Assembly: GCF_014653785.1 (NCBI RefSeq) | Contig: NZ_BNAS01000007.1 | Span: forward strand, 1 to 64,000 | Direction of reading: 5' to 3' | From: Promicromonospora soli | GTDB lineage: Bacteria > Actinomycetota > Actinomycetes > Actinomycetales > Cellulomonadaceae | Length of the DNA: 64,000 nucleotides | Part shown: positions 750 through 38,110 of the stretch, piece after piece | Position numbering within the stretch: the first letter of the stretch is position 1 | How the letters are laid out: each line of letters starts with the position of its first letter | Made by a program: the position numbers and the translations under genes | Notes under the pieces: model-generated | Told to the model about the DNA's origin: nothing | The model's database searches: none | Seen by the model: the letters and a program-made list of their open reading frames with translations, nothing else

Positions 750-1745
750 TCAGGAGCGCCGCAGCGACCGGATCTCGACGTAGGAACGCTGGGCGTTCCC
801 GAACGAGTCGACCGGGAAGCCCGGTGCCGGCTTCGACGCGGCGTTGTCCTGCTCCCAGATGCCGTGCCGCTTGCCGCCGCCCGCGAGCGCCGACAGGAAC
901 TCGGTGAACGGCAGGTCGCCGGCCCCGAACTCCACGATGTCGTAGCCAGCGGTGCTCTCCGGGTTCACCTCCCCGTCCTTGAGGTGCAGGAGCGGGTACC
1001 GCTGGGGGTTGCGCTTGATGTAGTCCACCGGCTCGAAGCCCGGGTACCGGTGCTGGCCCACGAACGCCCAGTAGACGTCCATCTCGAGGAACACCGTCGC
1101 GGGGTCGGTGTTGTCGTAGAAGACGTCGTAGAGGCGCACGTCCGGGTTGTCCGTGGCGAAGCTGAACTCCCCGTCGTGGTTGTGCTGGTAGAACTTCAGG
1201 CCGCGGGCGGCCGCTGCCGCCCCGAACCCGTTGAACTGCTCGGCCGCGGCGAGATAGCCGGCGATCGTGCGGTCCGCGGTGGGCGCGTTGGCCGTACCCA
1301 CGTGCTCCATGCCCAGGATCTGGGCGATGTCGAGCTCCAGCTCGATGTTGTTCACGAAGTCCCCGATGCCGCGGTGCGAGCCGACGGCGTGCAGGCCGTT
1401 GTCGTCCAGCAGCTGCCGGATCTCCTGCGGCGTGATGGGTCCGACCTGGTTCTGCGTGTACCCGGCGAACTCGACCTCCGCGTAGCCCATGGCCGAGAGC
1501 CGCTCGAACACTGCGCGGAAGCCGAGCGAGGACACCTTGTCCCGGATCGAGTACAGCTGGATGCCGATCTGTCCCGGCGGTACGAGCACCCGGCCCGTGG
1601 CGGCGGCCGTCGTCGCCGGGGCGAGGGTGGAAGCTGCGGCGCTGCCCGCGAGGGCGGCGCCGGCGAGAGACGCCGCGCCTACGGCTACGGTGCCGCCCGC
1701 CAGCCTCAGGAAGTTCCTGCGGTCGACGTCAGTGCGTGGTTCCAT
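750..1745 (-). CDS. Tat-exported TIM-barrel sugar isomerase/epimerase
   Basis: This 331-residue protein belongs to the xylose isomerase-like TIM-barrel (AP endonuclease 2) superfamily. The N-terminus has a twin-arginine signal (RRNFLRL near residue 9, then an Ala-rich hydrophobic stretch to about residue 38), so it is probably exported folded. Family features are the GIQLYSIRD opening strand, an HNHDGEF metal-ligand segment, and later Asp and His/Lys motifs (MDVYW, HLKDG). The ATG shares one base with the TGA of the upstream dehydrogenase gene (TGATG), which indicates translational coupling. It is the last gene of the operon. Related proteins act on keto-sugars or 3-oxo-glycosides, but the substrate is not known here. 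Confidence 0.85.
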   Translation of the reverse strand: MEPRTDVDRRNFLRLAGGTVAVGAASLAGAALAGSAAASTLAPATTAAATGRVLVPPGQIGIQLYSIRDKVSSLGFRAVFERLSAMGYAEVEFAGYTQNQVGPITPQEIRQLLDDNGLHAVGSHRGIGDFVNNIELELDIAQILGMEHVGTANAPTADRTIAGYLAAAEQFNGFGAAAAARGLKFYQHNHDGEFSFATDNPDVRLYDVFYDNTDPATVFLEMDVYWAFVGQHRYPGFEPVDYIKRNPQRYPLLHLKDGEVNPESTAGYDIVEFGAGDLPFTEFLSALAGGGKRHGIWEQDNAASKPAPGFPVDSFGNAQRSYVEIRSLRRS

Positions 1746-4396
1746 CACTGCTCTCCTTCTGTCCGAGCGGCCCCGGACGGGCCGGTCGAGTCCTGTGCGG
1801 CCGCTGGGGGCGTCCCGACGCCCGCGCCGACCATGGTCACCGCATCGACGGCGAGATCGCCGGCCGCCGTGATGTAGAGCGTTCCGGTGCCCTCGGGGGC
1901 GTCGAACGCGAGGTCGAGCTCCTGCCACGTGCGCGAGCTCAGCTTCGCCGTCGCGAACGGCTTGGCCGTGGGCGAGTCCCAGCGCAGCTGGAGCTTGCCC
2001 TTGCCGCGCACCGTCGCGGTGGCGCCGTCGATGCCGAGGAGGCTCACCCGCTGCAGGGCGAGCGAGTCGCCCTCGCCGAGGCCCGTCAGGTACGCGCCGG
2101 CCGAGGCCGCCTCGTCCTGGACCAGCTCGGTGGTGCCCTCGGCGTTCATGTGCTCGGCCTGCTGCAGCTTGGGGTTCAGGCGCAGCGTCGCCTCGCCGGC
2201 GGCGGACGGCAGGCCGTTGGCCCCGTTGTCGGTGTAGGTGACGACCACCGCGCCGTACAGGTGCGCGTCGGCGCCGTGCTCCGGGGAGTTGGGGTCGGTC
2301 GGGAGGACACCCGTGCAGCCCGTGCCGGACACCTCCGGGTGGGCGTGCTCGTCGTGACCGAGCCCGTAGGACCACGCCACCCGGCTGCAGACGGTCTCGG
2401 TGCCGTCCTCGGCGTCCTGCGTGGTCACCTGGAACGGCACCGCGTCGCCCCAGTCGAAGAACCCGCCGTCGGCCGGGAAGTCGACGGTGACCTCGGGTGC
2501 CTGGTTACCGACGCTGATCTCCTGCGAGGTCAGCGAGAACTTGGCGCGTGCGTCGGTGACCCGAAGTCTGGCCGTGTACAGGTCGAGCTCGGTGTAGGTG
2601 TGGGTGGCCTGGACGCCGCTGGCGTCGAACGTGCCGTCGCCGTCGAAGTCCCACTCGTACGTCAGCGCGTCACCGTCGGGGTCGCTCGAGGCGGACGCGT
2701 CGAACGAGACCTCCACCGGTGCGGACGACGACGACGAGGGCGTGGCCGTGAACTGCGCCTGAGGCGCCTTGTTGCCCTCCGCGTAGTCGATCCGGTACAG
2801 CCCGGAGTCCGGGTTCTGCCGGAAGAAGCCGTCGCCGTACTCCAGCACGTACAGGGAACCGTCCGGGCCGAACTCGAGGTCGATCGGGTTGTCGTTGCGG
2901 AACATGCCCGCCGCCTCCAGCGCCGTGTTCGGGAAGAAGTCCTCGATCTCCCCGACCTCGAACGTGGACCAGTCCACGCTGAACGCCGCGTAGTAGTCCT
3001 GGGAGAACTCGCCGAAGAACGCCTTGCCGTCCCAGACCTCAGGGAACTTGCCCGGCGCCGTCTCGTCCGCGTCGTAGTGGTAGACCGGGCCGCCCATGGG
3101 CCCCTGCCCGGTGCCGGAGCCGAAGTTCACGAGCTCGTCACGCGGCTGCTGCCCCGGCTGGTCGCCGTAGTACAGGGTCGCCGTGCGGGCCGGCGGGAGG
3201 TCGGTCAGACCGGTGTTCCAGCGGGAGTTGTTCTGCAGCGCGGCGCAGTCGAAGAACTCGCCCGGCGTGGCGGTCTCGAAGTTCCACTCGTTGTAGGCCG
3301 CGTTCGGTCCGTGGCAGTACGGCCACCCGGAGTTGTGCGGGTCGTCGAGCCCCACGGCGTTCCACTCCACGTAGCCCATCGGCCCCCGGTCGGGGTTCGC
3401 CGCGCTGGCGTCGGGCCCGTAGTCGGCCCAGGTCAGCGAGCTGGTCTCCGGGTCCACATCGATGCGGAACGGGTTGCGCACGCCCATCACGAAGATCTCG
3501 GGGCGCGTGCCCTCGGCGCCCGGGGCGAACAGGTTGCCCGCGGGGATGTCGTAAGTGCTGCCCTGGCCCGGCGGCGTACCGGCCGCGATGTCGTCCTTCA
3601 CGTCGATCCGCAGGATCTTGCCCCGCAGGTCGTTGGTGTTCCCTGCACCGCGACGGGCGTCGAAGCCCGGGTTCATGTTCGGGGCGTCGTTGTTCGGGGC
3701 GTACCCGTTGGCGCCCGGCGTGCCGGCGGGGGTGTTGTCGCCAGTGGAGAGGTAGAGGTTGCCGTCGCCGTCGAAGTCGATGTCCGCGCCGACGTGGCAG
3801 CACTGGCCGCGCTGCACCTCGACGTCGAGGATCGGCTGCTCCGAGGCCGGGTCCAGCGCGTCGCCGGTCCAGGTGAACCTCGACAGGCGGTTCACGCCCA
3901 CCCACCGGTCCCAGTAGCTCTCGTCCTCACCCGCGGGCAGCGTGTTGGGCGCGTTGCCCGACGGCGTGTCCGCCACGCCGTCGCCGTCGGCGTCCCGCGG
4001 CGCGTACACGAGGTAGACCTCGTTGCTCGTCTCGAAGTCCGGCGCCAGGGCGATGCCCTGCAGGCCGTCCTCCGAGTTGGCGTACACGTCGAGGGTGTTG
4101 ACCAGCCTGGTGACCCCGGTGGCCGGGTCGGTCACCCGCACGTCGCCGTTGCGGGCCGTGTGCAGCACCCTCCGGTCGGGGAGCACAGCCATGTCGATGG
4201 GCTCACCGACGTCCTTGGTGAGCAGGATCTTCTCGTAGTTGCCCCAGTCGGTGGCGGCAGCGGCCGCTCCGTCGAGGGTCTCCTGGGCAGTCGCCGACGG
4301 CGTGGCCACGAGCGCCACCCCGACCAGCGCGGTCGCGGCGAGCGCCGCGAACGTCTTGCTCTGCCGCGCGCGGGCGCGAACCTGGATAGTCTTCAT
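1745..4396 (-). CDS. secreted PQQ-type sugar dehydrogenase with PKD domain
   Basis: This 883-residue exported protein starts with a Sec-type signal peptide (about residues 1-37, ending near SATAQE). A six-bladed beta-propeller of the glucose/sorbosone dehydrogenase family follows (about 50-520, with family segments such as RNPFRIDVDP). Next comes a PKD domain (about 540-620, with PDGDALTYEWDFDGDG) and a C-terminal beta-sandwich resembling carbohydrate-binding modules (about 745-865). Such propellers oxidise sugars using PQQ or act as carbohydrate binders; PQQ dependence is assumed. GAGGAG lies 11 bases before the ATG, a long spacing. Its stop overlaps the start of the Tat-exported isomerase, linking two extracellular proteins. 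The 173-base gap upstream has no gene. Confidence 0.85.
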   Translation of the reverse strand: MKTIQVRARARQSKTFAALAATALVGVALVATPSATAQETLDGAAAAATDWGNYEKILLTKDVGEPIDMAVLPDRRVLHTARNGDVRVTDPATGVTRLVNTLDVYANSEDGLQGIALAPDFETSNEVYLVYAPRDADGDGVADTPSGNAPNTLPAGEDESYWDRWVGVNRLSRFTWTGDALDPASEQPILDVEVQRGQCCHVGADIDFDGDGNLYLSTGDNTPAGTPGANGYAPNNDAPNMNPGFDARRGAGNTNDLRGKILRIDVKDDIAAGTPPGQGSTYDIPAGNLFAPGAEGTRPEIFVMGVRNPFRIDVDPETSSLTWADYGPDASAANPDRGPMGYVEWNAVGLDDPHNSGWPYCHGPNAAYNEWNFETATPGEFFDCAALQNNSRWNTGLTDLPPARTATLYYGDQPGQQPRDELVNFGSGTGQGPMGGPVYHYDADETAPGKFPEVWDGKAFFGEFSQDYYAAFSVDWSTFEVGEIEDFFPNTALEAAGMFRNDNPIDLEFGPDGSLYVLEYGDGFFRQNPDSGLYRIDYAEGNKAPQAQFTATPSSSSSAPVEVSFDASASSDPDGDALTYEWDFDGDGTFDASGVQATHTYTELDLYTARLRVTDARAKFSLTSQEISVGNQAPEVTVDFPADGGFFDWGDAVPFQVTTQDAEDGTETVCSRVAWSYGLGHDEHAHPEVSGTGCTGVLPTDPNSPEHGADAHLYGAVVVTYTDNGANGLPSAAGEATLRLNPKLQQAEHMNAEGTTELVQDEAASAGAYLTGLGEGDSLALQRVSLLGIDGATATVRGKGKLQLRWDSPTAKPFATAKLSSRTWQELDLAFDAPEGTGTLYITAAGDLAVDAVTMVGAGVGTPPAAAQDSTGPSGAARTEGEQ

Positions 4397-4569
4397 ACGT
4401 GATGCAGCTCCTCGTCGAGTTCGTCACGCCGGCCGGGCCTCGTTCGCATCCCATTCGTCCGGGGCCCGGTCTTCCTGCTTCTCCCGCGTCGTGCTAGCGA
4501 CGCCGGGTGGTACCTGTTCGCTCCTGGTCGTACCTCCCTGTCAGACCTGTCGGCACGTCGTCGACGGCG

Positions 4570-5571
4570 TCAGCGGGTCGAGAACGCGGCGTCGAACGCC
4601 GAGTCGGGTGCGTCGAACGCGTGCGAGCGCACGAACTCGAGTGCCTCCGGCGCGCCGACGAGCCGGTCCATGCCGGCGTCCTCCCACTCGACGGAGATCG
4701 GGCCGTCGTAGCCGATCGTGTTGAGCATCCGGAACGCGTCCTCCCACGGGACGTCGCCGTGCCCGGTCGACACGAAGTCCCAGCCGCGGCGGGGATCCGC
4801 CCACGGCAGGTGCGAGCTCATCCGGCCGTTGCGGCCGTTCGTCATGCGCTTCTTCGTGTCCTTGCAGTCCACGTGGTAGATCCGGTCCTTGAAGTCCCAC
4901 AGGAAGCTGACCGGGTCCAGGTCCTGCCACACCATGTGGCTCGGGTCCCAGTTCAGGCCGAACGCCTCGCGGTGGCCGATCGCCTCCAGGGTCCGCACGG
5001 TTGTCCAGTAGTCGTAGGCGATCTCGCTCGGGTGCACCTCGTGGGCGAACCGGACGCCGACCTCGTCGAACACGTCGAGGATCGGGTTCCAGCGGTCCGC
5101 GAAGTCCTGGTACCCGGCCTCGATCGCGGCGTCGGACACCGGCGGGAACATCGCCACGTACTTCCAGATCGCGGAGCCGGTGAACCCGATGACGGTCTTG
5201 ACGCCGAGCTTCGCGGCGAGACGGGCGGTGTTCTTCATCTCCTCCGCGGCGCGCCGCCGCACGCCCTCGGGGTCGCCGTCGCCCCACACCCGGTCCGACA
5301 CGATGTCGCGGTGCCGCTGGTCGATCGGGTCGTCACAGACGGCCTGGCCCTTGAGGTGGTTGGAGATCGCCCACACCTTCAGGCCGTGCCGCTCCAGCAG
5401 CTCCAGGCGCCCGGCGACGTACTCGTCGTCGTCCCAGCGCCAGGGGTCGAGGTGGTCACCCCAGCAGGCCAGCTCCAGACCGTCGTAGCCCCAGGACGAG
5501 GCGAGGCGTGCCACCTCCTCCAGCGGCAGGTCGGCCCACTGGCCGGTGAACAGGGTGATCGGTCGTGCCAT
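4570..5571 (-). CDS. cytoplasmic TIM-barrel sugar isomerase/epimerase
   Basis: A 333-residue xylose isomerase-like TIM-barrel protein without a signal peptide. It has an ELACWGDH segment after strand 2, [21 protein letters not shown] and HVDCKDTK, which fit the metal and substrate ligands of the superfamily, and [10 protein letters not shown] near the end. The start is fixed by GAGGAAAAC directly before ATG. It lies between the thuA-like gene and the sugar dehydrogenase. As a cytosolic counterpart of the exported isomerase, it may process a keto-sugar delivered by the ABC importer. This TIM-barrel type is commonly found beside ThuA and Gfo/Idh/MocA genes in actinobacteria. Confidence 0.85.
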
Positions 5572-5603
5572 GTTTTCCTCCGTCGTAGGTGCGCAGGTCC
5601 TGC

Positions 5604-5637
5604 GGTGCGGGGCGGGCGTGCTGCCCGCCCCCGCACC
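5604..5637. terminator. GC-rich hairpin between thuA-like and isomerase genes
   Basis: GGTGCGGGGCGGGC (5604-5617) pairs with 5623-5637, with one bulged C and a 5-nt loop. It lies between the stop of the ThuA gene and the start of the next isomerase. It could attenuate transcription so that the last three genes are less expressed, or protect an mRNA end. Confidence 0.5.
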
Positions 5638-5644
5638 ACGCGTA

Positions 5645-6496
5645 TCAGGTGCAGTCCGAGTCGACGACGCCGGAGGCGGTCCGGATGCCGCCCAAGAGGT
5701 GCTGCAGGAACGCCGGCTCCGCGTACGACTCGTTCGTGTGCCCGCCGCCCGTGTACCAGGAGCGGCCGCCGTCGTACACGTGGCACCACGCCGTCGGGTG
5801 GTCGTCCCCCATCGCCCCGGACCCGGGGTCGTAGCTGTCCTCGTCGAGACTGGCCAGGACGTGCACGTCATCCCGCGGGTTGGAGCGGAAGTTGTACCAC
5901 TCGTCGCGCCGTTCCCAGCGGTCCGGCAGGTGCGCCGTGGAAGCGTGCGTGTGGTCCTCGACGTCGATCGTCGCGTCCTGGATCGCCGGGTGGCCGCTGA
6001 AGTAGGCACCCACAAGCTCGCCGTACCAGGGCCAGTCGTACTCCGTGTCCGACGCCGCGTGAATGCCCGCGTAGCCACCGCCACGCTGGATGTACCGCTC
6101 GAACGCCGCCTGCTGCCTGGCGTTCAGCACGTCACCCGTGGTGGACAGGAAGACGACCACCTCGTAGCGGGCGAGCCCGCGCTGGGAGAAGACGCGTGCG
6201 TCCTCGGTGGCGGTGACCGTGAAGCCGTTCTCCGCACCGAGCTGGGAGATCGCCTCGATACCGACGGGGATCGAGCCGTGCCGGAAGGCCGCCGTCTTCG
6301 AGAAGACGAGCGCGTCGAAGGGTTCGGCCGCGGTGTCGCCTGCCGAGCCGGCGGCCGCACCGTCCGGCGCCCCCTGGACCGCCGACGCCGGTGGTTCGAC
6401 GGCGGCCGCCAGCGCGGCCGGGATACCGAGAGCGGTCACGGCTGCTGCCGCGATCACCGACCGCAGCATGCGGCGGGTTCGTTGCACGTTTCTCAC
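5645..6496 (-). CDS. secreted ThuA-domain protein
   Basis: A 283-residue ThuA-family protein with a class I amidotransferase-like fold. The GTG at 6496 is chosen because GAGGAG lies six bases upstream; it gives an N-terminus with basic residues, a hydrophobic stretch and an Ala-rich cleavage region, that is, a signal peptide. Conserved ThuA pieces are [11 protein letters not shown], a [11 protein letters not shown] loop, [19 protein letters not shown] and the terminal GGHTNESY. ThuA of Sinorhizobium works in trehalose utilisation with the Gfo/Idh/MocA enzyme ThuB, and an enzyme of that family is the next gene upstream here. The secreted location suggests action on extracellular 3-keto-sugars (inference). 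Confidence 0.85.
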
Positions 6497-6557
6497 CTGG
6501 AGCTCCTCATCGAGACGGGTCAGTCCTAGTGCGGTGCGGTACGGCAAACGCTCTCGC

Positions 6558-7739
6558 TCACGGCAGGGGAACCCACCCCCCTCCGGCGGCCGCGCTGCGC
6601 TCGACGGCGTCCAGCACCCGCTGGACCTCCAGGCCGTCGCGGAACGACGGCGTCGGCTGCCGTCCGGCGGCCAGGTCCCCCATCAGGTCGACCACCTGGT
6701 GCGTGAACGCGTGCTCATAACCGAGCCCATGCCCCGGCGGCCACCAGTGGCCGCCGTACGGGTGCTCCGGCTCGGTGACGACTATCCGGCGGAAGCCCGC
6801 CGTCGCCGCCTCCTCCGTCGCGTCGAAGAAGTGCAGCAGGTTCATGTCCTCGAAGTCGAAGGCCAGCGAGCCCTTCGAGCCGTTGACCTCGAGCCGGATC
6901 GCGTTCTTGCGGCCCCACGCGAAGCGTGTCGCCTCGAAGCTCGCCAGCCCACCGCCGGACAGCCGGCCGAGGAACACCGCGGCGTCGTCCACCGTCACCC
7001 GGGCCGTGCGGCCGGCGTCAGCCACACCCGACAGACCCGAGGACGACGCCGCCTCCGGGCGCTCGTGCACGAAGGTCTCGAGCAGGCCGCTCACCCCCGT
7101 GAGCGACTCGCCCGTGACGTACTGCGCCAGGTCGACGACGTGGGCGCCGATGTCGCCCAGCGCCCCCGAACCCGCCTTCTGCTTGTCGAGGCGCCACGAC
7201 ATCGGTGCCTGCGGGTCCGCTATCCAGTCCTGCAGGTACTGCGCGCGCACGTGGCGCACCTGGCCGATCCGCCCCTGCTCGACCAGCTGCCGGGCCAGAG
7301 CGATCGCAGGCACGCGGCGGTAGGTGAACCCCACCATCGCGCGCACCCCCCGCGCCGCGGCCGCCTCGGCTGCGGCGACCATCGTCTCCGCCTCGGCCAC
7401 GCTGTTGGCCAGCGGCTTCTCGCACATCACGTGCTTGCCCGACTCCAGCGCGGCGACCGCGATCTCGGCGTGCGCGTCGCCGGGCGTGCAGACATCGACC
7501 AGGCCGACGTCGTCCCGGGTCAGCAGGTCACGCCACCCCACGACGGCGTCGTCCCAGCCCAGGCGTTCGGCAGCCGCACGGACCGCCGAAGCGTCCCGCC
7601 CCGCGACCGCGCGCATGCGCGGCACCAGCGGCAGGTCGAAGAACCGCGGCGCCGTGCGCCAGGCCTGCGAGTGCGCCGCCCCCATGAACGCGTAGCCGAC
7701 CATGCCGACCCCGAGCTCGTTGCTCTTACCGGTACTCAT
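6558..7739 (-). CDS. Gfo/Idh/MocA family NAD(P)-dependent sugar oxidoreductase
   Basis: This 393-residue protein has the Rossmann opening VGMVGYAFMGAAHS, the family signature EKPLAN and a C-terminal mixed-sheet domain, as in ThuB, IolG and 3-oxo-glucoside dehydrogenases. No signal peptide is present. The start at 7739 is supported by GGGGGAGG six bases upstream; an in-frame GTG nine codons earlier has no such site. The gene lies between the ABC importer lipoprotein and ThuA. It probably oxidises or reduces a hydroxyl (often C3) of the imported sugar. The exact substrate cannot be read from the sequence. Confidence 0.88.
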   Translation of the reverse strand: MSTGKSNELGVGMVGYAFMGAAHSQAWRTAPRFFDLPLVPRMRAVAGRDASAVRAAAERLGWDDAVVGWRDLLTRDDVGLVDVCTPGDAHAEIAVAALESGKHVMCEKPLANSVAEAETMVAAAEAAAARGVRAMVGFTYRRVPAIALARQLVEQGRIGQVRHVRAQYLQDWIADPQAPMSWRLDKQKAGSGALGDIGAHVVDLAQYVTGESLTGVSGLLETFVHERPEAASSSGLSGVADAGRTARVTVDDAAVFLGRLSGGGLASFEATRFAWGRKNAIRLEVNGSKGSLAFDFEDMNLLHFFDATEEAATAGFRRIVVTEPEHPYGGHWWPPGHGLGYEHAFTHQVVDLMGDLAAGRQPTPSFRDGLEVQRVLDAVERSAAAGGGWVPLP

Positions 7740-7813
7740 ACCGCGCCTCCCCCGCCGTTGGCTCACCCGCTGTGTCGCACGCCCGAGAGGGCGTCGTCCT
7801 GGACGTCACTGCG

Positions 7814-8869
7814 TCAGGACTCGAAGCCGACCGACAGGTACTCCTCGACGTTGTCCGCCGTCACGACGGGCGCGTGGAGCTGGACGGTGCGCGGCACGCC
7901 GATCGACGCGAGGTCGCCCACCGTCTTGTTCTGCGCGATCAGGCGGGCGAGCTTGACGCCGTCGGCGGCCTGGGTGGACGGGTAGATGACGGTCGCCTCG
8001 ACGACGCTCTCCCCGGACTGGATCTCTTCCATCATGTTGATGGACCCCGCACCGCCGACCATGAAGAACTCGTCGCGGCCGGCGTTCTCGATGGCGGCGA
8101 GCACGCCGACGCCCTGGTCGTCGTCGTGGTTCCAGATGGCATCGATCTGCGGCTCCGCCGACAGCAGGTTCGCCGTCTGCTCCTCGCCGCCCTCGACCGT
8201 GAAGTCGGCGGCGACGCGCGCGTCGACGTCCAGGCCGCAGTCGTCGAGGGCGTCCTTGAAGCCGTCGCTGCGGTCCTGCGTCAGCGGCAGGGAGTCGATG
8301 CCGGCGATCTCCGCGACCACCGCGTCCGGGTTGTCACCCAGCCGCTCGCAGATGTAGGTGCCGGCGCTCACGCCCATCCCGTAGTTGTCGCCCAGCACGG
8401 TGGTGCGGGCGGCGAACGGGCTGGTGAACTCGCGGTCCACGTTGATGACCGGGATGCCAGCCTCCATGGCCTCGAGCGCCACCTCGGTGAGTGCGGCGCC
8501 GTCGAACGGCAGCAGCACGATGGCGTCGACACCCTCGTTGATGAACCCCTCGACCTGGCTGATCTGCACGTTGACGTCGTTGGTGCCCTCGGCAACCTGG
8601 AGAGTGACGTCCTCGTACTTGTCGGCCTCGGCCTGGGCGGCGCTGGTGATCGCGCCCATCCAGCCGTGGTCGGCGGCCGGGGCGGAGAACCCGATGACCA
8701 CTTCGTCGCCGGGCTCGTCGTTCTCCGTCACCGTGACTGGACCGGTGGCGGTGTCTTCGGTCTCGCGGGGTTCGTTGCTGGTGCAGCCGGCGACGACGAG
8801 CGCGGCGCAGGCAGCGGCCACGAGGGCGCCGGAGGCCCGGCGCGTGCGTACTGCTCGGACAGAAGTCAT
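7814..8869 (-). CDS. sugar ABC transporter substrate-binding lipoprotein
   Basis: A 351-residue type-1 periplasmic-binding-protein fold of the ribose/xylose group. The N-terminus is a lipoprotein signal with the lipobox VVAGC (lipidated Cys 29). Family segments are VIGFSAPAADHGWM, the VDAIVLLPFDG hinge region and IPVINVDREF. GGGAGATCACC precedes the ATG. With the permease and double ATPase immediately upstream it forms a complete CUT2-type importer. The neighbours (dehydrogenase, ThuA, isomerases) suggest a modified monosaccharide or small glycoside as ligand. Confidence 0.9.
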   Translation of the reverse strand: MTSVRAVRTRRASGALVAAACAALVVAGCTSNEPRETEDTATGPVTVTENDEPGDEVVIGFSAPAADHGWMGAITSAAQAEADKYEDVTLQVAEGTNDVNVQISQVEGFINEGVDAIVLLPFDGAALTEVALEAMEAGIPVINVDREFTSPFAARTTVLGDNYGMGVSAGTYICERLGDNPDAVVAEIAGIDSLPLTQDRSDGFKDALDDCGLDVDARVAADFTVEGGEEQTANLLSAEPQIDAIWNHDDDQGVGVLAAIENAGRDEFFMVGGAGSINMMEEIQSGESVVEATVIYPSTQAADGVKLARLIAQNKTVGDLASIGVPRTVQLHAPVVTADNVEEYLSVGFES

Positions 8870-8927
8870 GGTGATCTCCCTTGATCCGGGGTGGAGCTGC
8901 TGGGTTGGCTGGTGCACGAACTCGGTT

Positions 8928-8945
8928 GCGCGCTCGGAGGCGCGC
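8928..8945. repeat. small inverted repeat between permease and lipoprotein genes
   Basis: GCGCGC at 8928-8933 and 8940-8945 flank a 6-nt loop, in the 95-base gap separating the permease stop from the binding-protein start. It may stabilise the more abundant binding-protein mRNA; this is inference. Confidence 0.35.
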
Positions 8946-8964
8946 GGACGGGGTGACGACGGGC

Positions 8965-9942
8965 TCACGTGCTCGTCGCCCTCTCGCGCGAGGCGAACCA
9001 CTGCTGGAGCAGCACGGCGGCCACGATGATCGCGCCCTTGGCAATCGCCTGGACCGAGCTGTCGAGGTTGTTGAGGACGAAGACGTTCGTCAGCGTCGCG
9101 AAGATCAGGACGCCCAGGACGGTGCCCGTGATGGTGCCGCGGCCGCCGGCCAGCAGCGTGCCACCGACGACCACCGCAGCGATGGCGTCCAGCTCGTAGA
9201 GCGTGCCGTGGGTCGAGGAGCCCGCAGTCGTGCGGGCCAGCATCATCACGGCGCCGATCCCCGCCGTCAGGCCGGTGAGCCCGTACAGGTACAGGGTGTG
9301 CCGCTTGATCTTGATGCCCGCCAGACGGGCCGCCTCCGGGTTGCCGCCCACCGCGATGGTGCGCCGGCCGAACGTGGTGCGGTTCAGCAGGAACCATCCG
9401 GCGGCGGCGACCACGACGAAGATCCACACGATCATCGGCAGGCCGAGGAGATCGCCGCGGAAGACGTCGAGGAACGGATCCACGTCGACGATCTGGGTGC
9501 GCCGCCCCGCGATGATCTCCGCCAGACCGCGGGCCGCGGCCAGCATCGCAAGGGTGGCGATGAACGCGGGCACCCTGCCGTAAGCGACGAGGGCGCCGTT
9601 CACCAGCCCCGCGCAGAGCCCGACCACGAGCGCGGTCAGGACGATGACCCACCAGCCGTAGTCCTCGGCCATGTACTGGGTGGACAGGGTGGACGCCCAC
9701 ACCGTCGCCAGGCCGAGCACCGAGCCGACCGACAGGTCGATGCCGCCGCCGGTGATGACGAACGTCATGCCGATGCTCACCACGCCGATCGTCGCGGCGA
9801 GGCTCAGGATCGTGGTGATGTTGCCGATGCTGGCGAACCGCCCGTCGGTGGTGGCGATCCCAACAACACACAGCAGGACCAGGGCGAGCACGAGGCCGCC
9901 CATTCGCAGTGCCGGCCCTGACAGGGCCGATCGTGTGCTCAC
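8965..9942 (-). CDS. sugar ABC transporter permease, RbsC-like
   Basis: A 325-residue hydrophobic protein with about eight to ten membrane segments and the RbsC-family motif GGGIDLSVGS. It forms the membrane channel of the CUT2 importer. Its GTG start overlaps the TGA of the ATPase gene by four bases (GTGA), with GGAAG about seven bases upstream, indicating translational coupling. The frame stays open far upstream, but that part lies within the ATPase gene in another frame and does not look like protein. Confidence 0.9.
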   Translation of the reverse strand: MSTRSALSGPALRMGGLVLALVLLCVVGIATTDGRFASIGNITTILSLAATIGVVSIGMTFVITGGGIDLSVGSVLGLATVWASTLSTQYMAEDYGWWVIVLTALVVGLCAGLVNGALVAYGRVPAFIATLAMLAAARGLAEIIAGRRTQIVDVDPFLDVFRGDLLGLPMIVWIFVVVAAAGWFLLNRTTFGRRTIAVGGNPEAARLAGIKIKRHTLYLYGLTGLTAGIGAVMMLARTTAGSSTHGTLYELDAIAAVVVGGTLLAGGRGTITGTVLGVLIFATLTNVFVLNNLDSSVQAIAKGAIIVAAVLLQQWFASRERATST

Positions 9943-11477
9943 GCGACACTTCCTTCCATGACCAGGTCGAGCACGGCGTGCTCGTCGATTTCGTCGGCCG
10001 GGCCCTCGTGGACCGCGCGGCCGTCGGAGATGACCAGAACCCGGTCCGCCAGGCCGAGCACCTCCGGGATCTCGCTGGAGACGACGAGCACGGCTGTACC
10101 CGCGTCGGCCAGCCGCCGGATCAGGCCGTAGATCTCGGCGCGCGCGCCGACGTCGACGCCCCGGGTGGGTTCGTCGAGCAGGAGTACGCGGCAGCCGTGC
10201 ACGAGCCAGCGCGCCAGCAGCGCCTTCTGCTGGTTGCCGCCGGACAGGGTGCGCGCGTCGCGGTCCACCGAGGCGGGCCGCAGGTCGAGGGCCTCGACCT
10301 GCTCGCGCGCCGCCGCACGCTCGGCCCCCTCGTCGAGGAGTCCCCCGCGGCCCAGGCGCGCGAAGGTGGAGAGAGTGATGTTCCGGTACACAGGCTCGTC
10401 CAGGAGCAGGCCCTGGCTCTTGCGCTCCTCCGGGCACAGCCCCATGCCCGCGGCGACTGCAACGTCCACACCCGCGCGCAGGCGCTTGCCGCCCACGCGC
10501 ACGCTGCCCGACGTCGCGCGCCGGGCCCCGTAGATCGTCTCCAGGATCTCGGAGCGGCCCGAGCCCACCAGGCCCGCCAGGCCGACGATCTCGCCGGCGC
10601 GGACCGTGAGGGAGACGTCCTCGAAGACTGCTCCGAGCCCGAGGCCCTCGACATCGAGCACCGGTGCCGCGTCCTCCGGGACGCCGGGACGGTCGGGGAA
10701 CGCGTACTCGACCGACCGGCCGGTCATCAGCCGGATCAGCTCCTTGGTCGGCGTGTCCGCGACGGGCAGGCCCGTCGCGACGGTACGACCGTCCTTGAGC
10801 ACGGTGATGCGGTCGCCGAGCTGCCGGATCTCCTCCAGGCGGTGCGAGATGTAGACGACGGCCACGCCCTCGGCCGTGAGCTCGCGCACGATGCGGTGCA
10901 GGTTCCCGACCTCCTCGGAGTCCAGCACCGCGGACGGCTCGTCCATGACCACGACACGCGCCTCGCGGGACAGCGCGCGGGCCAGCTGCACGATCTGCTT
11001 GCCTGCCGCGGGCAGGCGGCCCACCTCGCGATGCGGCGAGATCTCGGGGTGGCCGAGGCGCTGCATGACCTCGCGGGTACGCCGGGCGGCGTCGGACCGG
11101 CGGGTGACGCCGCCCCGCGCCAGCTCGTGCCCGAGGTAGATGTTCTCGGCGACGGTCAGGCCGTCGACGACGTCGAGCTCCTGGTAGATCGTCGCGATGC
11201 CGAGACGCAGGGCCGCCACCGGGTCCGGGATGGTGACCGGTGCCTCGTCGAGCAGGACCTCGCCCGCCGTGGGCTGGTGTGCCCCGGCCAGGATCTTGAT
11301 CAGGGTGGACTTGCCCGCCCCGTTCTGGCCCAGCAGGCAGTGCACCTCGCCGGGACGGACCTCGAGGTCCACACCGTCGAGCGCTCGCGCGCCGGGAAAC
11401 TCCTTCACGATGCCACGCATCCGCAGCAGGGGCTGCGGCGCCGGCTGCTCTGTCGGTTCTGGGTCCACGTCGACCAT
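9939..11477 (-). CDS. sugar ABC transporter ATP-binding protein, RbsA-like
   Basis: A 512-residue protein with two fused ABC domains. The first has a canonical Walker A (GQNGAGKST), signature LPAAGKQ and Walker B VVMDEPS. The second has the degenerate nucleotide loop GLVGSGRSE, a proper signature LSGGNQQ and LLLDEPTRGVDVG, the pattern typical of RbsA/MglA. No ribosome site precedes the ATG at 11477. A good promoter (TTGACG, 17 nt, TACGTT) puts the transcript start on the A of the ATG, so the mRNA is probably leaderless. It is the first gene of the sugar operon. Confidence 0.9.
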   Translation of the reverse strand: MVDVDPEPTEQPAPQPLLRMRGIVKEFPGARALDGVDLEVRPGEVHCLLGQNGAGKSTLIKILAGAHQPTAGEVLLDEAPVTIPDPVAALRLGIATIYQELDVVDGLTVAENIYLGHELARGGVTRRSDAARRTREVMQRLGHPEISPHREVGRLPAAGKQIVQLARALSREARVVVMDEPSAVLDSEEVGNLHRIVRELTAEGVAVVYISHRLEEIRQLGDRITVLKDGRTVATGLPVADTPTKELIRLMTGRSVEYAFPDRPGVPEDAAPVLDVEGLGLGAVFEDVSLTVRAGEIVGLAGLVGSGRSEILETIYGARRATSGSVRVGGKRLRAGVDVAVAAGMGLCPEERKSQGLLLDEPVYRNITLSTFARLGRGGLLDEGAERAAAREQVEALDLRPASVDRDARTLSGGNQQKALLARWLVHGCRVLLLDEPTRGVDVGARAEIYGLIRRLADAGTAVLVVSSEIPEVLGLADRVLVISDGRAVHEGPADEIDEHAVLDLVMEGSVA

Positions 11478-11483
11478 GTATCG

Positions 11484-11521
11484 AACGTAGATGGACTTTT
11501 GGCGACCGTCAAGCAAAAGTC
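11484..11521 (-). promoter_or_regulatory. sugar operon promoter with inverted-repeat operator
   Basis: On the minus strand TTGACG (11507-11512) and TACGTT (11484-11489) are separated by 17 bases, followed by six bases and the ATG of the ATPase gene. A perfect inverted repeat, GACTTTTG (11494-11501) and CAAAAGTC (11514-11521), lies over the spacer and the far side of the -35 box. The arm centres are 20 bases apart, two helical turns, which suits a dimeric ROK repressor. The divergent ROK gene is the obvious candidate regulator. Confidence 0.7.
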
Positions 11522-11533
11522 GCAACTATGTTG

Positions 11534-11557
11534 ACCATGATTGACTAGAGTCATGGT
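11534..11557. promoter_or_regulatory. second inverted repeat overlapping the ROK gene start
   Basis: ACCATGA (11534-11540) and TCATGGT (11551-11557) form a perfect 7-bp inverted repeat that includes the ATG of the ROK gene. It differs in sequence from the operator at 11494-11521. It could be an autoregulatory site or an RNA stem at the start codon. Confidence 0.4.
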
Positions 11558-12734
11558 GGAAGTGGGACGGGCCGCGGTTCAGCAGGCACCCAAGGTCTCT
11601 GGAGCAGGAGACATGTTTCAGCTCCTGCGTGATGGACGGCCCCGCACGCGGGCCGATCTCGCGGCTGTGACGGGGCAGGCCCGGTCGACGGTCGCGGCGC
11701 GCATCGACCTGCTCATGGCGGCCGGGCTCATCGCACCGGCGGGCGAGGCGACGTCGACCGGCGGCAGGCCGCCCGCGACCTTCGCGTTCGCGCCGTCCGC
11801 GCGGGTGGTCCTGGGTGTCGACCTCGGGGCGACGCATGCCCGGCTCGCCGTGACCGATCTCGCCTCCACCATCCTGGCGCAGCGCGAGCTGCCGCTGCTG
11901 ATCACCGACGGACCGGACCTCGTGCTCGACCGCGTGGCCGAGACCGGCGCCGAGCTGCTGCGCGAGGCCGGACGGTCCACCAGCGAGCTCGCCGGGGTCG
12001 GCGTCGGCCTGCCGGGGCCCGTGGAGCACGCCACCGGCAAGCCGAACAACCCGCCGATCATGCCCGGCTGGGACAACGCCGACGTGCCCGCCATCCTCGG
12101 CGACCGGTTCCACGCACCCGTGCTCGTGGACAACGACGTCAACATCATGGCCCTCGGCGAGCACCGCACCGCCTGGCCCGGCGTGGCCGACCTGCTGTTC
12201 GTCAAGGTCGCCACCGGCATCGGCGCCGGCATCATCGCCGACGGCGCGCTACGGCGCGGCGCGCAGGGCTCGGCGGGCGACATCGGGCACGTCGCCGTGC
12301 CGGGCGTCACCGACGTCGTGTGCCGGTGCGGCAACATCGGCTGCCTGGAGGCCATCGCCAGCGGGCTGGCCGTCGCGAACAAGCTGGAGGGCGCGAAGAC
12401 GCCCGCCGACGTGGTCGCGCTGGTGCGCTCGGGTGACGTCGCCGCGAGCCAGGCCGTGCGCCAGGCCGGGCGGGACATCGGCGCGGTGCTCGCCACGAGC
12501 GTCAGCCTGCTCAACCCGTCGATGATCGTGATCGGCGGCATCCTGGCCGACGCCGGGGAGCACATCGTGGCCGGCATCCGCGAGGTGGTCTACCAGCGAT
12601 CGCTGCCGCTGGCGACCCAGCACCTGCGCATCGTCACGGCGCGGACCGGCACGCAGGCCGGCGTGCTGGGCGCGAGCGCCATGGCGGTCGACCAGGCCCT
12701 CTCCTCGGAGGCGGTGGACCGCCTGGTGGCCTAG
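11553..12734 (+). CDS. ROK-family transcriptional repressor
   Basis: A 393-residue ROK protein. The N-terminus holds a winged helix (about 20-75, with DMFQLLRDGRPRTRADL and RSTVAARIDLL). The sugar-kinase-like domain follows, with the ATP-loop segment GVDLGATHARLA, and the zinc motif is complete (GH, then CRCGNIGCLE). Such proteins repress sugar operons and release DNA on binding sugar. It is divergent from the sugar ABC operon. The start is uncertain: ATG 11553 keeps the conserved GAGD segment before the helix and is preferred, whereas ATG 11613 has a GGAG eight bases upstream. Confidence 0.9.
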   Translation: MVEVGRAAVQQAPKVSGAGDMFQLLRDGRPRTRADLAAVTGQARSTVAARIDLLMAAGLIAPAGEATSTGGRPPATFAFAPSARVVLGVDLGATHARLAVTDLASTILAQRELPLLITDGPDLVLDRVAETGAELLREAGRSTSELAGVGVGLPGPVEHATGKPNNPPIMPGWDNADVPAILGDRFHAPVLVDNDVNIMALGEHRTAWPGVADLLFVKVATGIGAGIIADGALRRGAQGSAGDIGHVAVPGVTDVVCRCGNIGCLEAIASGLAVANKLEGAKTPADVVALVRSGDVAASQAVRQAGRDIGAVLATSVSLLNPSMIVIGGILADAGEHIVAGIREVVYQRSLPLATQHLRIVTARTGTQAGVLGASAMAVDQALSSEAVDRLVA

Positions 12735-35714: not shown

Positions 35715-35788
35715 GGGGTAACGGTACGACGTCGGGCGGCGTGGGACGGATCGGCGTCCACCATCGCGTCTCTGCCACGATTGGGCAC

Positions 35789-38110
35789 ATGGTGCAGTCC
35801 AAAAGAGCAAGACCGCAGCGGGCGCCGGGCGACCCGGCGCCGCGTCCGGTCGTCCGGCCGCTGATCCGGCCTTCGGCCCGCCGCAGCCACGTTCCACCGC
35901 TGGGCGTGTACGTCACGCCCGACGGCGGGATCGACGCCGCCGTCCTCGCATCCCACGCGACCGCCGTCGACCTGTGCCTCATCGACGTCACGGACCCGGC
36001 CCTGGACGAGCACGACCCGAACCGGTACGCCGAGCGTCGGTTCGAGATGGTGGGCCCGGTGTACGGCGTCTGGCACACGCACGTCCCGGAAGTCGCGCCG
36101 GGCCAGCGCTACGGCTTCAGGGTGTACGGGCCGTGGGACCCGCGCGCGGGACTGCGGCACAACCCGAACAAGCTGCTGGTCGACCCGTACGCGCGCGGGT
36201 TCGCGGGCGAGCTGCGGTACGGGCCGGAGATCGTGGGCTCGGTGGCCACACGGCGGGACGAGGGGCCGGGACCGGGCTGGTGGCTGGGCGACCGCTACGG
36301 CGCCGCGGACGACCGGGACTCCCTGGCGTACGTGCCGCACTCCGTGGTCGTCGGGCCGCTGCCGCCGCCGGCTCCCCTGTCCCGGCCGCGCGTGCCGTGG
36401 GCCGACACGGTGATCTACGAGGCGCACGTGCGCGGCCTGACGATGCTCCGTGAGGACATCCCGGCAGAGCTGCGGGGCACCTACGCGGGGGCGGCGCACC
36501 CGGCCGTCGTCGAGCACCTGAAGAGCCTGGGGGTGACCACGCTCGAGCTGCTGCCGATCCACCAGAGCGTGGCCGAGCCACGGCTCGCCGCCGACGGGCT
36601 GCCGAACTACTGGGGCTACAACACGCTCGGGTTCTTCGCGCCCAATGCCGCCTACGCGACCCAGGCCGCCCAGGACCGGGGCGCCGAGGCCGTGCTCGAC
36701 GAGGTGCGCGGCATGGTGTACCTGCTGCACAAGGCGGGCATCGAGGTGCTGCTCGACGTGGTCTACAACCACACCTGCGAGGGCGGCGACGACAGCCTGC
36801 ACCTGTCCTGGCGCGGCCTCGACAACCCGGTCTACTACCTGCACGACGGCGCCTCGCCGGCCGCCCTCGCGGACGTCACGGGCACGGGCAACTCGCTGGA
36901 CTTCCGGCGGCCCCGCGTGATCCAGATGGCCCTGGACTCCCTGCGGTACTGGGCCGAGACCGTCGGCGTCGACGGGTACCGGTTCGACCTCGCGGTGACG
37001 CTCGGCCGGGGCAACGTCGGGTTCGACCCGGACCACCCGTTGCTGGTGGCGCTGCAGACGGACCCGGTGCTGTCCGGCCTCAAGCTCGTGGCGGAGCCCT
37101 GGGACGTGGGGCCCGGCGGCTGGCAGACCGGGTCGTTCCCGCCGCCCATGGCGGAGTGGAACGACCGGTTCCGCGACGCCGCCCGCCAGTTCTGGCTGGA
37201 TGCGCCCCGGCAGGGTGCGCACGGGCTGGAGATGGTCGGCCTGCGCGACCTCGCCACCCGCCTGGCCGGGAGCGCCGACCTGTTCGGGCCGGGTGACCCG
37301 CCGCTGGTGCGCGGACCTGTGGCGTCGGTCAACTACGTGACGGCGCACGACGGCTTCACGCTCGCCGACCTCGTGGCCTACGACCACAAGCACAACGAGG
37401 CCAACGGCGAGGACAACCGCGACGGGTCGGACAACAACCTGTCGTGGAACCACGGGATCGAGGGCCACACCCTGTCCGGCGACGACGCCACCACGGAGCC
37501 CTGGCAGGCGATCGTGCCGCCCCGCCGCAGGTCGCAGCGCAACCTGCTGGGCACCCTCCTGCTCGCGGCCGGCACGCCGATGCTGACCGCGGGGGACGAG
37601 TTCGGCCGCACGCAGGGCGGCAACAACAACGCGTACGTCCAGGACAACGAGGTCTCCTGGCTGCGGTGGCCCAAGGACTACGCCGCCACCGACCTGCTGG
37701 AGACGACCCGCTATCTGCTGCGGCTGCGACGGGAGCACCCGGCGCTGCGCCCCGACTCGTTCTACCTCGGCGCACCCAGGCCGGGCGAGTCCGACCCGGA
37801 CCTGCTCTGGTTCTCCGGGGCAGGGGCGCCGATGGAGCCCGCCACCTGGAACAACCCCTCCCGGCGAGTGCTGCAGATGCTCCGGCCCGGACCGGCCGTG
37901 GGCGACGCCGACGTGCTGCTGGTCATCAACGGCGGCCTGGACGACGCCTACGTGACGCTGCCGCCGACCCAGCCCGGCAGCGCACCGTGGGAGCTGGTGT
38001 GGGACTCCGCGTGGGACGCCCCCGAGCTGCCCGAGGACGAGGCCGGCCCCCGCACGTCGGTGACCATGAACGCGCTCAGCATGCACGTTCTGCTCTCCGC
38101 GGGCACGTGA
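35789..38110 (+). CDS. glgX: glycogen debranching enzyme GlgX
   Basis: A 773-residue GH13 enzyme of the GlgX/isoamylase group. It has an N-terminal CBM48-type domain (YGFRVYGPWDP), NYWGYNT, DVVYNHT (about 323), the nucleophile in GYRFDLA (about 398), the acid in AEPWD (about 437) and NYVTAHDGF. It hydrolyses alpha-1,6 branches of limit dextrin during glycogen breakdown. A basic, poorly conserved N-terminal tail of about 45 residues precedes the core. ATG 35789 has no good ribosome site. Confidence 0.93.
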   Translation: MVQSKRARPQRAPGDPAPRPVVRPLIRPSARRSHVPPLGVYVTPDGGIDAAVLASHATAVDLCLIDVTDPALDEHDPNRYAERRFEMVGPVYGVWHTHVPEVAPGQRYGFRVYGPWDPRAGLRHNPNKLLVDPYARGFAGELRYGPEIVGSVATRRDEGPGPGWWLGDRYGAADDRDSLAYVPHSVVVGPLPPPAPLSRPRVPWADTVIYEAHVRGLTMLREDIPAELRGTYAGAAHPAVVEHLKSLGVTTLELLPIHQSVAEPRLAADGLPNYWGYNTLGFFAPNAAYATQAAQDRGAEAVLDEVRGMVYLLHKAGIEVLLDVVYNHTCEGGDDSLHLSWRGLDNPVYYLHDGASPAALADVTGTGNSLDFRRPRVIQMALDSLRYWAETVGVDGYRFDLAVTLGRGNVGFDPDHPLLVALQTDPVLSGLKLVAEPWDVGPGGWQTGSFPPPMAEWNDRFRDAARQFWLDAPRQGAHGLEMVGLRDLATRLAGSADLFGPGDPPLVRGPVASVNYVTAHDGFTLADLVAYDHKHNEANGEDNRDGSDNNLSWNHGIEGHTLSGDDATTEPWQAIVPPRRRSQRNLLGTLLLAAGTPMLTAGDEFGRTQGGNNNAYVQDNEVSWLRWPKDYAATDLLETTRYLLRLRREHPALRPDSFYLGAPRPGESDPDLLWFSGAGAPMEPATWNNPSRRVLQMLRPGPAVGDADVLLVINGGLDDAYVTLPPTQPGSAPWELVWDSAWDAPELPEDEAGPRTSVTMNALSMHVLLSAGT

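Follow-up and report, generated by a model that had tools for sequence, protein, structure and literature searches.

The window analysed here comprises the first 64,000 nucleotides (from base 1) of contig NZ_BNAS01000007.1 (C7) of Promicromonospora soli, which has a genome of 5.38 Mb, and its GC content is about 70% or above over most of its length. At positions 750-12734 it carries nine genes, g1-g9, which probably encode a two-compartment route for the cleavage of glycosidic bonds by oxidation, elimination, hydration and reduction in place of ordinary hydrolysis. The genes and their operator, each with the evidence used for its assignment, are as follows.

750..1745, minus strand: g1, TIM barrel with a predicted twin-arginine translocation (Tat) signal, predicted 3-keto-glycoside 1,2-lyase (beta-eliminase); PDB sequence search, Foldseek, alignment
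1745..4396, minus strand: g2, GSDH-fold propeller with PKD and CBM6, predicted to be secreted, candidate sugar 3-oxidase; Pfam, AlphaFold, Foldseek, alignment
4570..5571, minus strand: g3, TIM barrel, cytoplasmic, predicted 2-hydroxy-3-keto-glycal hydratase; sequence matches to 2zds and 8ro4 (AtHYD)
5645..6496, minus strand: g4, ThuA-domain protein, predicted to be secreted, putative accessory; Pfam 275 bits, gene order in relatives
6558..7739, minus strand: g5, Gfo/Idh/MocA oxidoreductase, cytoplasmic, candidate 3-keto-sugar reductase; PDB matches, NCBIfam
7814..8869, minus strand: g6, sugar-binding lipoprotein of the CUT2 type; Pfam PF13407 (Peripla_BP_4), ribose-binding-protein family
8965..9942, minus strand: g7, CUT2 permease; Pfam PF02653 (BPD_transp_2)
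9939..11477, minus strand: g8, CUT2 ATPase; two ABC_tran stretches (Pfam)
11496..11519, no strand assigned: operator palindrome CTTTTGCTTGACGGTCGCCAAAAG (minus-strand reading), between the ROK gene and the ATPase gene
11541..12734, plus strand: g9, ROK-family repressor; PF00480 199.9 bits, winged helix under the Pfam cut-off

Because the eight minus-strand genes (750-11477) are separated by intergenic gaps of only -4 to 173 bp and g9 diverges from them across 63 bp, g1-g8 likely form one operon with g9 as its regulator. A first-pass annotation had already named this set, with three exported proteins, two cytoplasmic enzymes, a CUT2 importer and a ROK repressor in a single operon, and all of it is recovered by Pfam and by codon-position GC. 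With trimmed starts, nine of nine genes show the codon-position GC of real genes (third position 0.91-0.96); as untrimmed longest open reading frames, five of the nine passed the codon-pattern filter, the other four failing because those frames start too early. Since no open reading frame wholly contained in bases 1-749 passes the coding filter, the window beginning at the contig edge, the operon probably ends at 750. Pfam assigns both barrels, g1 and g3, to AP_endonuc_2/xylose-isomerase-like proteins, and a double-cassette ATPase, a BPD_transp_2 permease and a Peripla_BP_4 protein identify the importer as CUT2.

The exported barrel g1 is predicted, by strong homology, to be a 3-keto-glycoside 1,2-lyase, that is an eliminase. 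Its closest solved relatives by sequence are 8tcs and 8tcd (E 1.2e-26; 8tcs, 8tcd and 8tct together span 1e-26 to 3e-19), and the PDB search also returned 8bvk (E 2.5e-5), which is the O-glycoside beta-eliminase AtOGE according to PMC10628242. The AlphaFold model of g1 (mean pLDDT, the predicted local distance difference test, 83.5) is closest to the 3-keto-beta-glucopyranoside-1,2-lyases AL1 and BT1, which occupy the Foldseek ranks 1-4; Parabacteroides proteins titled sugar phosphate isomerase/epimerase follow at ranks 5-7, and AtOGE at ranks 8 and 10. In 17 of 17 aligned sequences of the family, H188 and H190 (H-N-H), D223, H254 and E298 are invariant. AtOGE binds its metal through H132, D163, H189 and E233 and uses H134 as catalytic residue (PMC10628242), and the invariant residues of g1 follow these in order and with similar spacing, the equivalence being assigned by order and homology. 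Membership of g1 in the lyase/OGE group is thus reflected both in a TIM barrel with the expected active-site residues and in closest solved structures that are such lyases. As a side observation, locus L067 (14406-19391) contains a tandem duplication of the eliminase gene together with the following gene for a secreted-looking protein of 422 residues without a Pfam match.

For the inner barrel g3, the nearest solved relative is 2zds (E 1e-168), the uncharacterised SCO6571 of Streptomyces coelicolor, and the second is 8ro4, deposited as the 2-hydroxy-3-keto-glucal hydratase AtHYD (E 2.4e-34, residues 16-328), so that g3 is predicted to be a 2-hydroxy-3-keto-glycal hydratase. The oxidoreductase g5 has its closest named relatives in Promicromonospora species (92, 90 and 90%) and its nearest solved one in 4h3v (E 2.6e-185), which is listed without an assigned activity; the levoglucosan dehydrogenase group 6a3f/6a3i comes next (E 4.2e-90), and the best NCBIfam model is LevoglcsnDh (NF052479) with 370.1 bits, under its cut-off of 650. 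Labelling the locus as a levoglucosan operon of the LgdA type was considered and rejected, as g5 misses this curated cut-off (370/650) and the operon has no cytoplasmic eliminase. From its family and position we infer that g5 may act as the 3-keto-sugar reductase at the end of the pathway, since the operon has a single Gfo protein and its other dehydrogenase-fold protein lies outside.

The split between the two compartments rests on signal peptides, which were called by a simple home-made rule and not by SignalP; the lipobox on g6 was found by eye. In the window, g1 has a Tat-type signal, g2 and g4 have Sec-type signals and g6 has a lipobox, with none on g3 and g5; the first-pass annotation had likewise described g1, g2 and g4 as exported and g3 and g5 as cytoplasmic. 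Predicted signals follow the same division, with outer enzymes exported and inner ones cytoplasmic, across the relatives counted, which comprise the window and loci L085-L164 (L065-L084 and frames cut at the contig start were left out). A signal was found for 16 of 17 eliminases, all of them with a twin-arginine motif (15 of 16 relatives of g1), and for 39 of 41 GSDH proteins, against one of 73 hydratases and none of 81 Gfo proteins. The ThuA count (29 of 51) mixes exported with apparently cytoplasmic forms, the latter for example next to a further Gfo gene in Arthrobacter-like loci, and the DUF1080 count (10 of 16) is affected by the reach of the rule, which covers 160 residues before the domain and therefore misses long proteins: L085, L086, L087 and L090 scored negative, although the L085 protein has a signal-like start. 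Binding proteins appeared exported in 71 of 72 cases with the domain start shifted, compared with 0/71 unshifted, where the signal peptide already overlapped the start of the profile; a similar shift produced false calls for 23 of 81 Gfo proteins and one of 73 hydratases.

Relatives of the genes also travel together. Among 198 sampled genomes of the order, relatives of g2 (E <= 1e-60) were found in 27, of g3 (E <= 1e-100) in 109 and of g1 (E <= 1e-30) in 16. All 27 g2-positive genomes have g3 (p 1.9e-8), as do all 16 g1-positive ones (p 4e-5), in a test that ignores phylogeny, and at the genus level the figures are 13/13 for g2 (p 4e-5) and 9/9 for g1 (p 1.3e-3); three of the 16 g1-positive genomes lack g2 at its threshold. 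Twenty of the 27 g2 neighbourhoods were fetched, and in eight of these (L070-L073, L075, L080, L082 and L083, where L071, a Kineosporia stretch, is also L157) importer, Gfo, hydratase and ROK genes stand alongside g2, while most of the others show GSDH and a g1-like barrel apart from the importer. Around g5, the comparison covered the 80 best-ranking stretches out of 561 confirmed ones (L085-L164), with counts that are lower bounds as some loci end at contig ends or at the 10-kb flank. Here, by profile search, the inner genes are frequent (hydratase 72, binding protein 71, permease 70, ATPase 69, ROK 61) and the four outer families occur as ThuA in 40, GSDH in 37, eliminase in 16 and DUF1080 in 16. 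Gfo, the CUT2 trio and the hydratase occur together in 64 of the 80, and related clusters are found in other actinobacteria; GSDH is present in 31 of these 64, GSDH with eliminase or DUF1080 in 20, and at least one of the four outer families in 39, some of the ThuA proteins being apparently cytoplasmic. From the counts for the whole genome analysed here (GSDH at three sites, five ThuA genes, DUF1080 at three sites, two of them above cut-off), we estimate a chance expectation of about 0.01-0.02 of each per 21 kb.

Gene fusions link the outer enzymes to one another. In four of the 20 g2 neighbourhoods (L075, L081, L082, L083) GSDH and eliminase are fused in one open frame, and three of these loci also hold importer, Gfo and hydratase. 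The 1915-residue protein of L082 combines GSDH, PKD, two eliminase-like barrels, a weak S-layer-homology match and a CBM6-like stretch under the cut-off, and its gene adjoins hydratase, Gfo, importer and ROK genes; the L083 fusion resembles it by profile, and those of L075 and L081 have one barrel. Fusions of ThuA with DUF1080, with or without GSDH, are found in 11 of the 80 g5 loci. Six of them (L133, L134, L140, L150, L155, L156, from Streptomyces, Saccharomonospora, Amycolatopsis and Saccharothrix) join GSDH, ThuA and DUF1080 in one open frame, and L124, L145, L149, L158 and L163 join ThuA and DUF1080; the domains of these 11 were called by profile, with a Pfam check on L150. DUF1080 is named in Pfam as the 3-keto-disaccharide hydrolase family, an activity that PMC9007349 connects with BT2157 and with its proposal for Caulobacter.

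A shared operator ties distant outer genes to this system. The palindrome CTTTTGCTTGACGGTCGCCAAAAG overlaps a -35-like TTGACG, with TACGTT 17 bp on; the ATPase start lies six bases after this, which suggests a leaderless transcript of the operon. In the window and 100 loci (101 sequences, at most one arm mismatch) there are 57 operator-like sites, compared with 6 in the reversed sequences, and 49 of the 57 fall in zones upstream of profiled genes, which make up 24% of the sequence. Such sites precede GSDH genes distant from the importer in L067, L068, L074 and L076-L079, with a weaker one in L069, and a ROK gene adjoins three of these GSDH genes (L074, L076, L078); in Promicromonospora they also precede DUF1080 genes (L085-L087). 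The strict pattern finds only the window site in this genome. With a refined pattern there is one more perfect match, which has the same -35/-10 layout and lies roughly 200 bp ahead of a second locus; about 0.003 perfect matches are expected by our own estimate from base count alone. A third site with one mismatch (C1:1231320) was dropped, as it stands at the start of an open reading frame of another kind and a backward-pattern control with at most two mismatches gave two matches versus three forward. The second locus, which is unlinked (L028 5692-12705; G000:C1 about 332.7-339.7 kb), contains a multicopper oxidase whose start looks Tat-like by eye, a ThuA-F5/8-GSDH-PKD-DUF1080 protein of 1359 residues (open frame 1422) and a cupredoxin-like protein that appears to be secreted. 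This is a hint that proteins of the GSDH family may pass their electrons to copper proteins.

The candidate oxidase is g2, since no other exported protein of the operon has a dehydrogenase fold, and its place in the pathway leads us to infer that it oxidises the sugar at C3. Its GSDH domain scores 85.5 bits in Pfam and is modelled by AlphaFold (pLDDT 89.6) as a sugar-dehydrogenase propeller, with 3a9g, 2ism and 2g8s as best matches (template modelling score 0.78-0.80 by target, 0.52-0.56 by query); HHIP, which is no dehydrogenase, also scores in the structure search. Beside GSDH and PKD, g2 carries a CBM6 module that was absent from the earlier description, as were the operator and the identity of the two barrels. 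All 23 family members keep a Cys-Cys-His and an Arg-Asn; the His and the Arg-Asn align with those of 2g8s, which we take to be catalytic and to contact pyrroloquinoline quinone (PQQ), respectively. Many mature GSDH proteins (L065, L068, L070, L073, L076, L085-L087, L160 and others) have a His directly after the predicted cleavage site, in N-termini of the type HPGHxH or HDGVDHG (the strict form A-x-A-HxGH in 14 of 61 GSDH frames), which look like a metal-binding site; g2 of the window has no N-terminus of this kind.

The secreted ThuA protein g4 (283 residues) is probably a shortened form of a larger protein in this lineage, because 12 close relatives (L085-L091, L094, L096-L098, L105) have at the same place, between Gfo and hydratase, an open frame of 1745-2139 residues in which ThuA continues into GSDH; for L085, Pfam adds PKD, CBM6 and DUF1349. 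Other relatives, such as L092, L093, L099, L102 and L107, have no gene at this position. In the window (5571-5645), g4 ends 73 bp before g3, where the frame of the relatives runs on into GSDH. The idea that ThuA regularly accompanies GSDH and eliminase was dropped, as a g4 match (E 1e-8) was found in none of the 20 fetched g2 neighbourhoods, against a ThuA domain in 40 of the 80 g5 loci. The first-pass view of a secreted ThuA protein in the pathway holds for its presence and its predicted export, and a function for it is the weaker part; we know of no settled reaction for ThuA. Apart from this, in five Micrococcaceae loci (L118, L127, L136, L144, L147) the Gfo gene stands together with genes for a ThuA that looks cytoplasmic and for a further Gfo with a weak match; four of the five also have the hydratase, and CUT2 genes of the same type were not seen in them. 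These loci may represent a version of the pathway confined to one compartment. A similar Arthrobacter-like Gfo-hydratase-ThuA-Gfo set on a contig labelled Vibrio cholerae 35D (L151, 68.6% GC) probably reflects a mislabelled or contaminated record.

Because both barrels are placed by homology, all four steps of the known route appear to be present and split across the membrane. Outside the cell, the secreted g2, perhaps held at a polysaccharide via its CBM6 and PKD modules, would oxidise a glycoside at C3, and g1 would split the resulting 3-keto-glycoside into the aglycone and a 2-hydroxy-3-keto-glycal. The importer g6-g8 would take up the keto-glycal or a 3-keto-sugar, after which g3 would hydrate the glycal to a 3-keto-aldose and g5 may reduce this with NAD(P)H to an ordinary hexose. 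The ROK protein g9 would repress the operon via the 24-bp operator until relieved by a sugar of the pathway, and g4 may be an accessory. That keto chemistry takes place outside, followed by import and completion inside, had been suggested before, and it is now supported by homology, by the fusions of exported enzymes, by the shared operator and by co-occurrence. A wider and more tentative proposal, which we regard as possible rather than probable, is that g2 and its relatives are a new class of GSDH-fold C3 oxidases without the usual use of PQQ, whose electrons perhaps go to copper proteins secreted by the cell. As partners of eliminases and hydrolases, through fusion or common regulation, they would act in many actinobacteria on or outside the wall, in a hydrolase-independent saccharification that feeds a dedicated ABC (ATP-binding cassette) importer for keto-sugars or keto-glycals.

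Several observations weigh against the two-compartment pathway. Known GSDH enzymes oxidise C1, and we found no assayed precedent for a GSDH protein that oxidises C3. Of the R-x-R pair, presumably the PQQ clamp of soluble sugar dehydrogenases, the second Arg is present in 0/23 and the first in 5/23 family members, a position located by its distance from the common G-x-D-G-x-x-Y motif downstream, before which the alignment is poor; a GSDH paralogue on contig C5 has R-L-R there. Furthermore, a search for pqqC (TIGR02111), whose presence would support the use of PQQ without being required for it, gave no match in this genome and matches in four of the 27 g2-positive genomes, all of one genus. As the R-x-R is not kept and pqqC was not found, the use of PQQ by g2 is doubtful, so that of the original description as a PQQ-type sugar dehydrogenase the fold and the conserved His and Arg-Asn stand and the cofactor is the weaker part. 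The g4-like ThuA that is missing around g2 relatives belongs to the same list, and g5 might just as well work in the oxidative direction on a glycoside that has been imported. Finally, 28 of the 80 g5 loci show none of the four outer families within the stored stretch, and g2 is missing at E <= 1e-60 from 82 of the 109 genomes with g3, which indicates that the inner genes can occur in the absence of this outer set.

Among the alternatives, an outer hydrolysis of the ThuA or DUF1080 type could release a 3-keto-monosaccharide, which g3 as an isomerase or epimerase would convert before g5 reduces it. The ThuA-DUF1080 fusions have related importer and g5 genes, and in most cases g3, as neighbours, and the second locus has its ThuA-GSDH-DUF1080 protein under the same operator, but the window operon contains an eliminase and, by Pfam, no DUF1080, and a solved relative of g3 is deposited as a hydratase; we therefore consider this route unlikely. 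All keto chemistry could also be cytoplasmic, as it is for the Lgd enzymes of levoglucosan users, with CUT2 importing a small glycoside or anhydrosugar, g5 oxidising it at C3 and the exported proteins serving other ends. The relation of g5 to levoglucosan dehydrogenase and the 28 loci without nearby outer families are compatible with this, and LgdA neighbourhoods also include ABC transporters and ROK regulators, besides the unassigned LgdB3/LgdB4 barrels (PMC10066097). However, the LevoglcsnDh score stays well under its cut-off, the only eliminase of the operon is of the Tat type, as in nearly all relatives, and gene fusions and the operator connect GSDH, ThuA, DUF1080 and eliminase with operons of this kind, so that we give a wholly cytoplasmic route a rather small probability. 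Ordinary uptake of a sugar or an inositol-type polyol, with g3 as inosose dehydratase, g5 as inositol dehydrogenase and GSDH as a plain aldose C1 oxidase, is highly improbable, since beyond family-level matches g3 reaches 44.4 bits against a cut-off of 290 for the myo-inosose dehydratase IolE (TIGR04379) and g5 104 against 355 for IolG, by which the IolE and inositol-operon labels were rejected, and the exported eliminase and the fusions would be left unexplained.

The two-compartment pathway can be compared with several known systems. In those of the gut lyases AL1 and BT1, oxidation is reportedly carried out by Gfo/Idh/MocA enzymes and not by GSDH. These lyases (PDB 8tcr, 8tcd, 8tct) are the closest solved folds of g1, but they come from Bacteroidota. 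AtOGE and AtHYD, the relatives of g1 and g3, belong to a four-enzyme Agrobacterium tumefaciens operon, GlycDH-AtOGE-AtHYD-Gfo, with the same succession of oxidase, eliminase barrel, hydratase barrel and Gfo reductase (PMC10628242); the hydratase step is termed preliminary there. In contrast, the window locus has a secreted GSDH candidate oxidase, a Tat-type eliminase, an intervening CUT2 importer and an added ThuA. The levoglucosan pathway LgdA-LgdB1-LgdB2-LgdC follows the same reaction logic, with g5 as a relative of LgdA and with an ABC importer and ROK there too, and a four-enzyme operon of Bacillus smithii has matching chemistry (PMC7676230 and PMC10066097). The levoglucosan pathway differs in having two Gfo enzymes versus one here and in that the eliminase is exported here, and the parts of PMC10066097 covering abstract, Results and Discussion describe no exported GSDH or eliminases. 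The Caulobacter lactose pathway of LacABC and DUF1080 matches in its proposed periplasmic geography, whereas that organism is Gram-negative with a membrane LacABC oxidase and the present system is Gram-positive with a GSDH-type protein and an ABC importer (PMC9007349). Four features look new: the distribution of the steps over both sides of a Gram-positive envelope, a GSDH-type protein as candidate oxidase, the fusions, and an operator that connects both halves. No published description of this actinobacterial arrangement was found in the open-licence PMC literature, and as most subscription papers lie outside that scope this absence proves little.

A scan of ten further large proteins encoded in the window, made to find other carbohydrate genes, showed none that looks linked to the operon. 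A CBM48/alpha-amylase-type protein lies at 35741-38110; the remaining ones are DNA ligase, PhoX, BipA, a peptidase, a histidine-kinase-type ATPase, an FAD protein and parts of peptide transporters.

Gut bacteria, agrobacteria and levoglucosan users are already known to cleave keto-glycosides. Should this cleavage also take place outside the wall of soil actinobacteria, a part of their carbohydrate use would be invisible to an annotation based on glycoside hydrolases, and many proteins now labelled “ThuA”, “PQQ sugar dehydrogenase” or “sugar phosphate isomerase” would gain a pathway. An importer for a reactive keto-glycal would become testable, and ThuA would obtain a concrete chemical setting.

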